From the NCBI RefSeq assembly GCF_030625865.1, contig NZ_DAOUQB010000006.1:1-64000 (forward strand): 64,000 nucleotides of DNA, given 5' to 3'. Position 1 is the first letter of the stretch, and the number at the start of each line of letters is the position of its first letter. The notes below the pieces were generated by a model. The model saw nothing but the letters and a program-made list of their open reading frames with translations. It searched no databases and was not told the DNA's origin. The stretch comes from Anaerotignum sp. GTDB lineage: Bacteria > Bacillota > Clostridia > Lachnospirales > Anaerotignaceae. Shown here piece by piece: positions 818-1,483 of this stretch. Both the position numbers and the translations under genes were made by a program.

Positions 818-848
818 TGGAAAAAAGTGAAACTCTACGGAACGTGGA

Positions 849-877
849 TTGGATTAACAGGTCAATTCATCTATAAT
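849..877 (+). promoter_or_regulatory. Promoter of the HTH-superoxide reductase gene
   Basis: TTGGAT (849-854), a 17-nt spacer and TATAAT (872-877). The expected transcript has a very short leader of about 12 nt ahead of GGAGG and ATG 896. Confidence 0.65.
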
Positions 878-895
878 ATAAATATGGAGGTGACA

Positions 896-1483
896 ATGGT
901 GGATTGTAATAAGGTAGGTAAATTAATTTTTGCCTTACGCAAAGAAAAAGGTATGACACAAAGACAGCTTGCGGAACGCATGAATATAAGCGACAAAACC
1001 ATTTCAAAATGGGAGAGAGGATTGGGGTGTCCCGATGTATCCCTTTTACATGATTTATCTGTCGCATTAAATGTAAATATTGAAAAAATTTTGTTAGGGG
1101 ATTTAGAACCCAATAATATTGATGGAGGAAATATGAAAAGATTGAAATTCTATATGTGCCCCAATTGCGGAAATGTGATTACGGCAACCAGTGATGCAGA
1201 AGTTTGCTGCTGTGGACGCAAGATGGCACCTTTGGTGCCGAAGCCTGCAGAAGGAGAGCATTGTTTCAGTATGGAATATATTGAGAATGATTTATATATT
1301 ACTTTTCCCCACGAGATGAAGAAGGATCATTATATATCTTTTATTGCATATGTGACCTATGATAAGGTTCTTTTTGTAAAGCTTTATCCAGAGCAGGGCA
1401 GTGAGCTACGGATTCCAAGGCTTTCAAAAGGGAAGCTATATTTTGGATGCAGCAAACATGGATTGTGGGTGAATGAAGTTTGA
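896..1483 (+). CDS. XRE-type HTH regulator fused to a superoxide reductase (desulfoferrodoxin)-like domain
   Basis: 195 residues. The N-terminal part (about 5-65) is an XRE/Cro helix-turn-helix with the recognition segment ISDKTISKWERG. From residue 80 on it resembles desulfoferrodoxin: a rubredoxin-type site (CPNC, then CCCG 12 residues later) and all five ligands of the superoxide reductase iron centre in order (His in GEH, His in PHEM, His in DHYI, Cys and His in CSKHGLW). The usual lysine beside the first His is absent. The start at ATG 896 is set by GGAGG at 886-890; GTG 899 is also possible. A promoter TTGGAT-17 nt-TATAAT lies at 849-877. An in-frame ATG at 1133 has its own GGAGG (1124-1128) and would yield the iron domain alone. 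Function is unproven; inference: a regulator that senses superoxide, iron or redox state. I recall similar proteins in other Clostridia but know of no characterised one. Confidence 0.85.
   Translation: MVDCNKVGKLIFALRKEKGMTQRQLAERMNISDKTISKWERGLGCPDVSLLHDLSVALNVNIEKILLGDLEPNNIDGGNMKRLKFYMCPNCGNVITATSDAEVCCCGRKMAPLVPKPAEGEHCFSMEYIENDLYITFPHEMKKDHYISFIAYVTYDKVLFVKLYPEQGSELRIPRLSKGKLYFGCSKHGLWVNEV

Follow-up and report, generated by a model that had tools for sequence, protein, structure and literature searches.

The window, a stretch of 64,000 nucleotides from Anaerotignum sp. (contig NZ_DAOUQB010000006.1), encodes near its start a 195-residue protein (896..1483; this gene and the parts of it and of its promoter given below lie on the forward strand) in which a predicted DNA-binding domain is followed by a desulforedoxin (Dx) and superoxide reductase (SOR)-like module. 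A GGAGG Shine–Dalgarno (SD) sequence at 886..890 precedes two candidate full-length starts, ATG 896 and GTG 899, and the alignment of relatives favours 899. Five tRNA genes lie shortly upstream (12-85, 291-362, 371-444, 451-521 and 702-772; two tRNA-Glu, two tRNA-Cys and one tRNA-Asn), and downstream of it 1790-2699 encodes an ArsR-family regulator and an SdpI-family membrane protein, with repeated ATTTAGA-type stretches in their promoter. In two other genomes (G020 and G024) the contig likewise starts shortly upstream of the fusion gene.

The N-terminal half matches the Pfam family HTH_3 (PF01381) with 58 bits against a gathering cut-off of 23. In an AlphaFold model built from 49 sequences (mean pLDDT 86.7), the helices of this XRE domain span residues 4-67 (905..1096), and residues 5-69 resemble the P22 c2 repressor (VIA Z 12.0). 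A linker of low model confidence (residues 68-79, 1097..1132; pLDDT below 50 at residues 72-76) leads to the C-terminal domain, of which residues 79-195 resemble superoxide reductases in the model (VIA Z 13.1-14.1) and residues 81-192 match desulfoferrodoxin 1dfx (phmmer, E 1e-6). Alignment places a Dx-like set of four cysteines at C88, C91, C105 and C106 (1157..1213) and the four His and one Cys ligands of SOR centre II at H122, H139, H145, C185 and H188 (1259..1459). The original prediction of an XRE domain joined to a C-terminal half with all five iron-centre ligands and a rubredoxin-like Cys set is thus borne out in this protein. Residues 32-40, the region of the recognition helix, are invariant except for T35 in 49 aligned close relatives. 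The organism is close to Anaerotignum neopropionicum, whose version of the protein is 84% identical.

The fold, the five centre II ligands and the four Dx cysteines are shared with desulfoferrodoxin/2Fe-SOR (1dfx and 2ji1), from which the window protein differs in its fused HTH, in lacking the Lys before the first His and in falling below family cut-offs: Pfam Desulfoferrodox scores 16.3 bits (curated cut-off 22.2) and TIGR00320 (dfx_rbo) 33.2 bits (cut-off 146.9). In the phmmer alignment to 1dfx, H122 stands opposite the first His ligand and E121 opposite the preceding Lys, so that the window protein reads G-E-H where 28 of the 29 canonical SORs examined read E-K-H. The genome that carries the fusion also encodes a canonical Dx-SOR, and the window protein has three residues fewer between the first and second His than that enzyme. 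Judged by sequence, the C-terminal domain is an atypical SOR in which the catalytic Lys is replaced, a description that we present as new. Compared with XRE/lambda-repressor-like regulators such as P22 c2 and SinR, the HTH_3 fold is shared and the metal-site domain takes the place of their C-terminal parts.

The order of N-terminal HTH, desulforedoxin and SOR module is that of the HTH-Dx-SOR class named by SORGOdb in 2011, which comprises 19 proteins and is presented by architecture, without a function, in the available portion of that paper (PMC3116461). The same portion writes the Dx metal residues as CXXCX15CC, whereas the window protein has CX2C-X13-CC with all four Cys present, a two-residue gap relative to canonical SORs that is common to 42 aligned fusion-type proteins; a role of Glu47 and Lys48 in SOR appears there as the title of a cited reference (PMC3116461). 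The available portions of PMC12724145, PMC3828012 and PMC5047918 do not mention the fused regulator. Like the original prediction, we found no functional study of an HTH-Dx-SOR regulator in the open-licence PubMed Central literature (preprints lay outside the search). The fused architecture was already known; new here, besides the atypical C-domain, are a predicted operator with its phase and target genes, the suggestion that it serves an activator, and the conservation of the internal start in part of the class.

Metal sites across relatives of the fusion protein

The original prediction suspected similar fusions in other Clostridia, and their distribution proves wide. The fused type (C-domain E <= 1e-16) is present in 103 of 392 genomes drawn from the order of the window. 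At least 583 stretches in a collection of named genomes code for proteins related to the query, although in some the resemblance may lie in the HTH only; among the best 80 of these all 80 have the C-domain, and Bacilli and Negativicutes are represented. In nine Bacilli genomes, which we take to belong to aerobes, the fusion is present and nothing else scores as an SOR above the Pfam cut-off; G396 has a weak SOR match of 20.2 bits with an internal stop.

To the five-ligand alignment that had been proposed as a check we brought 106 distinct fusion-type ORFs from the order and, for comparison, 29 of its 49 canonical-type matches. Adding the best 80 of at least 583 named relatives, a set biased to close relatives, gave 177 distinct C-domains including that of the window. 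Some positions are conserved beyond chance: the first three Dx cysteines (C1-C3) and His139 are each invariant (177/177). In the same set, the fourth Dx position is Cys in 152 and His in 25. All five centre II ligands are intact in 107 of the 177 and altered in 70; among the order's ORFs they are intact in 50 of 106, compared with all 29 canonical SORs. H188 is replaced by Asp or Glu with the other four ligands kept in 44 of 177, and the first His is lost in 26 of 177. The SOR iron site that had been called complete is so in the window protein; it is not a property of the class, as H188 is already Asp in two proteins from the window's own genus (L007 and L008). In 12 of the 106 ORFs, Cys185 or the third His (His145) is replaced, so that centre II cannot bind metal there as in SOR and is not the sole input across the class. 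On a tree of 118 columns with 49 of its 112 inner branches open, which we used for counting changes and for main groups rather than for branching order, the five-ligand state has changed at least 10 times.

These alignments indicate that the C-domain is not kept as a standard SOR and that the Dx-like site and His139 are its constant parts. They bear on whether the protein might simply be a superoxide reductase whose DNA-binding half only autoregulates and whose internal start supplies free enzyme. The intact ligands and Dx Cys set of the window protein agree with such a role. Against it, a Lys before the first His is found in only 6 of 106 fusion-type ORFs, compared with 28 of 29 canonical SORs, centre II is altered in 70 of 177 C-domains, and a canonical Dx-SOR is already encoded in the same genome. 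A metal-based input for a regulator appears plausible, since C1-C3 and His139 are invariant and HHHC plus H, D or E at centre II is kept in 151 of 177 C-domains, Bacilli included. Direct sensing of superoxide or iron by the fusion protein, as first proposed, is a plausible hypothesis.

In one clade, nearly all of one family (for example L102, L107-L110 and L116), the fourth Dx Cys has become His (25/177), and in 24 of these 25 H188 is also Asp; by sequence, the two metal sites are altered in step in this Cys3His clade. An intact in-frame HTH is missing from at least 11 of the 106 ORFs (L024, L025, L026, L029, L038, L040, L042, L080, L099, L117 and L119). In three of these (L029, L080 and L026) a stop codon or a shift breaks the frame within the HTH or behind it, and they are pseudogenes or assembly errors. 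In five genomes of two genera (L024, L025, L038, L040 and L042) an insertion breaks the HTH at identical codons, following KWE or KWERG, and the end of the inserted element in L042 encodes a DUF4368 protein, which we take to be of the large serine recombinase type. In genome G002 some 14 kb separate the two parts of the gene, L223 being the other end. The HTH sequence of the fusion gene seems to be the integration site of an element.

A partly conserved putative internal start

As originally noted, an in-frame ATG (Met80, 1133..1135) is preceded by its own GGAGG (1124..1128). The spacing is 4 nt, giving GGAGG-AAAT-ATG, and the ATG lies close to where stand-alone Dx-SORs begin. An internal start codon with an SD of five or more is found in 71 of 177 sequences. 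Where the protein reads GGN-M, GGA encodes the first Gly in 63 of 68 sequences, which are related to one another, against a background of 39%; within the first set, 14 of 15 genera show this preference. GGAGG is spelled even in five sequences whose amino acids differ (L-E-G-N or P-E-G-N). The internal SD is absent from a 50-row clade of the tree, in which the codon varies, and its state has changed at least 10 times. On these grounds the internal GGAGG-ATG would either have been selected at the nucleotide level or be a fossil in very good preservation.

The original prediction held that this start could yield the iron domain alone. The start is conserved in part of the class, and the apparent selection on it would suit a protein that works as a reductase. 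Release of the domain as a free reductase is nevertheless unlikely: the internal SD is kept in 10 of the 12 sequences with a destroyed centre II (Cys or third His replaced) and in only 16 of the 50 with five ligands, being absent from the other 34, so the start does not mainly supply free SOR. The spacing of 4 nt is also short, as 14 of 16 long ORFs of the window with a GGAGG have spacings of 5-11. We therefore rejected the internal start as chiefly a source of free reductase and regard the enzyme reading as a whole as quite improbable. If used, the internal start more likely makes a partner that lacks the DNA-binding half than an enzyme.

A predicted operator in fixed phase with the promoter

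Upstream alignment of near relatives first revealed a conserved block, AACTCTACGGAGCGT..ATTG. It belongs to a 20-bp element, ACTCTACGGAGCGTTTATTG, with the dyad CTACG-N3-CGTAG, that precedes most fusion genes and keeps a constant spacing to the -10 box. In the window the predicted operator ACTCTACGGAACGTGGATTG occupies 832..851 with its dyad CTACGGAACGTGG at 835-847; its end overlaps a predicted -35 hexamer, TTGGAT (849..854), and a predicted -10 hexamer, TATAAT (872..877), follows 17 bp after the -35. A dyad operator adjoining the -35 would be typical of XRE/lambda-repressor-like regulators. The motif scores at least 11/14 in 124 of 186 fusion loci (7 of which repeat a C-domain), compared with 1 of 177 control segments, and below 11/14 in the other 62. 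We found no mention of the motif string in open-licence PubMed Central papers (preprints lay outside the search). The conserved dyad before fusion genes indirectly but strongly supports DNA binding by the fused protein.

Seven loci in the upstream scan of 186 (L033, L085, L086, L088, L091, L092 and L094) form a clade without the motif, and the members of this operator-less clade also lack the first His ligand. In three of them (L033, L085 and L092) the fusion gene stands directly behind the same unrelated upstream gene, which suggests a different use or mobility.

Among 140 distinct promoters, selected by motif score, the dyad is perfect in 17, and a -10 hexamer (at least 4/6) stands at the fixed distance from the operator in 86%, compared with 10% and 1% one base to either side. 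In 19 further promoters, belonging to 17 other genes and 2 fusion operons, the best -10 stands at the fixed distance in 16, ties counted. TTG occupies the -35 place in 116 of the 140 and is missing in 24. These 24 match TTGACA at no more than 2/6 positions in 17 cases and have a good -10 in 21, and their dyad arms pair at four or more of five positions in all 24, against 47 of the 116 promoters with TTG. The position of the operator, the loss of the -35 in one clade with a better dyad and the fixed phase suggest that the regulator acts as an activator, repression from the same operator being less likely.

Predicted targets and neighbouring genes

At up to three mismatches the genome of the window contains only two motif sites, one at 833-851 and one on contig 69. 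The second precedes a module encoding an HTH-only paralogue (HTH_3), a GIY-YIG-like protein, DUF2087 and a CAT-family protein. Across the order, the main pattern at up to one mismatch gives 38 matches in 27 of 392 genomes and its reversed form 2. By coordinates, 24 of the 38 are promoters of fusion genes or operons, including one gene split by insertion (G002), and 14 stand before other genes: CAT genes (G015, G144, G231, G284 and G334), HTH-only/GIY-YIG-like modules (G000, G020, G022 and G025), GIY-YIG-like genes (G023, G026 and G364), an FMN reductase gene (G022) and another XRE gene (G236). The unlinked CAT targets (PF00302, 186-202 bits) thus come from 5 genomes of 2 genera, to which Anaerovorax is added by the named genomes; the HTH-only modules come from 4 genomes of the window's genus, with DUF2087 in 2 of them and CAT in the window's own; and FMN_red is an unlinked target in 2 genomes, the second of which (G012) was matched by a shorter pattern. 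The GIY-YIG name denotes a resemblance, since a scan of four such proteins gave one Pfam match below cut-off (20.0 against 22.6 bits) and three none. No report of DUF2087 together with GIY-YIG was found in open-licence PubMed Central papers (preprints lay outside the search).

Most of the order's fusion genomes (77 of 103) lack a main-pattern site at up to one mismatch; 13 of these 77 have a Lachnospiraceae-type variant, CTCTACTNTCCGTAGGTACC. The variant gives 14 matches in 13 genomes, all 14 before fusion genes, compared with 1 for the reversed control. In 19 named genomes, 14 of 16 motif matches are fusion promoters; the two others precede a CAT gene with a flavodoxin-type gene in Anaerovorax and a GIY-YIG-like gene with DUF6530 in Paraclostridium. 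The fusion is present in 12 of the 13 genomes with unlinked sites, compared with 103 of 392 overall (p 7e-7 on the assumption of independent genomes, which does not hold: the co-occurrence covers 4 of 5 genera and does not amount to 13 independent cases). No fusion was found in the genome of G236, which has a main-pattern site, or in that of G012.

Such sites raise the alternative that a different regulator, such as an HTH-only paralogue, recognises the motif and has the fusion gene among its targets. The paralogue module carries the same motif in four genomes of the window's genus, so that in the window's genome and three relatives the HTH-only protein behind the second copy could be the binder, and G236 and G012 have the motif without the fusion. 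All 14 variant matches nevertheless stand before fusion genes, the fusion promoter is the only site in 14 of the 26 fusion genomes with a main-pattern site and in 14 of the 16 named genomes that have a site, and the recognition helix region is invariant in close relatives, T35 apart. We judge this alternative very unlikely and take the fusion protein as the probable reader of the motif.

The gene neighbourhood draws on the same protein families. A CAT gene lies close to the fusion gene in 21 loci (17 distinct genomes) and a GIY-YIG-like gene in 13; HHxxxDG is found in 21 of 21 neighbouring CAT proteins, one with Glu for Asp. A CAT-family gene is next in the fusion operon in Anaerotignum and Sedimentibacter, and an isochorismatase gene stands directly behind the fusion in six Paenibacillus and one Priestia. 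Rubrerythrin is the one classical oxidative-defence neighbour with a Pfam match and was seen once, behind the fusion in G164 (L257); in G037 (L233) the gene behind weakly matches ODP/metallo-beta-lactamase and is flavodiiron-like. Five sister genomes (L003-L007) have a CAT gene after the fusion that is absent in the window and in L008. By BLASTN, what the window shares with L003-L007 is the last 40 nt or so of the gene and the stretch ahead of the downstream ArsR-family gene, all other matches being short and of no weight, and the one CAT gene of its genome lies within the other module. An operon partner was accordingly set aside as an explanation of function in the window.

These enzymes lend some weight to a reading in which the C-domain is only a structural metal ribbon that serves dimerisation or forms a pocket for small molecules, the signal being a xenobiotic and not redox state. 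The targets and neighbours are CAT-family and isochorismatase-family enzymes, with rubrerythrin in one case, and the Dx-type site is the most constant part of the domain, its Cys3His form in 25 of 177 being like a zinc ribbon. A structural role would not obviously need the HHHC plus H, D or E set kept in 151 of 177 C-domains, Bacilli included, and we consider xenobiotic sensing unlikely.

Discussion

Drawing on the fold, the ligands, the phase-locked motif, the shared target families and the co-occurrence of sites with the fusion, all read from the sequences, we consider it probable that the protein is a one-component regulator, built round a metal centre, of its own gene and of a small detoxification-type regulon, likely an activator, with an SOR-derived input domain. 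That it would be a regulator and not an enzyme is argued by the invariant residues 32-40 (T35 apart), the conserved operator, the loss of the catalytic Lys, the presence of another SOR in the host and the nine Bacilli with the fusion alone. DNA binding by this protein, activation, metal content and signal are what we infer. A dimer of the XRE domain would bind the CTACG-N3-CGTAG dyad, centred near -43 of its own and a few other promoters, and binding would most likely activate them in a geometry resembling that of a class II activator. The C-terminal desulforedoxin and SOR-like domain would be the input module, a SOR-derived metal site without the catalytic Lys, and its input would probably be redox state, with superoxide or O2 acting either directly or by oxidising an Fe(Cys)4-type site, or else the metal occupancy of the domain. 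As output we propose its own gene and CAT-family acetyltransferases, GIY-YIG-like/DUF2087 proteins and FMN reductases.

SoxR and PerR couple a metal-based redox input to a detoxification output. We propose that the fusion would work likewise, although its fold and metal sites are unrelated to theirs. A more specific version, which we hold only tentatively and think rather doubtful as a whole, is that an Fe(His)4Cys centre of SOR type, once enzymatic, now serves as a sensor, making the protein a superoxide- or O2-responsive class II activator of Firmicutes and a counterpart of SoxR with an unrelated fold, acting at the operator CTACG-N3-CGTAG; in part of the class, a short form without the DNA-binding half, made from the internal start, would be its own antagonist.

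To our knowledge, how superoxide is sensed without SoxR in strict anaerobes and in many Bacilli is an open question, and if a widespread regulator itself contains the SOR centre, it becomes a direct candidate for such a sensor. This regulator is found in many Firmicutes, and the strongly conserved DNA tag before its own gene and before a few detoxification-type genes predicts what it controls. The operator, its phase and the target genes make testable a class that, in the literature searched, has so far been a name since 2011.
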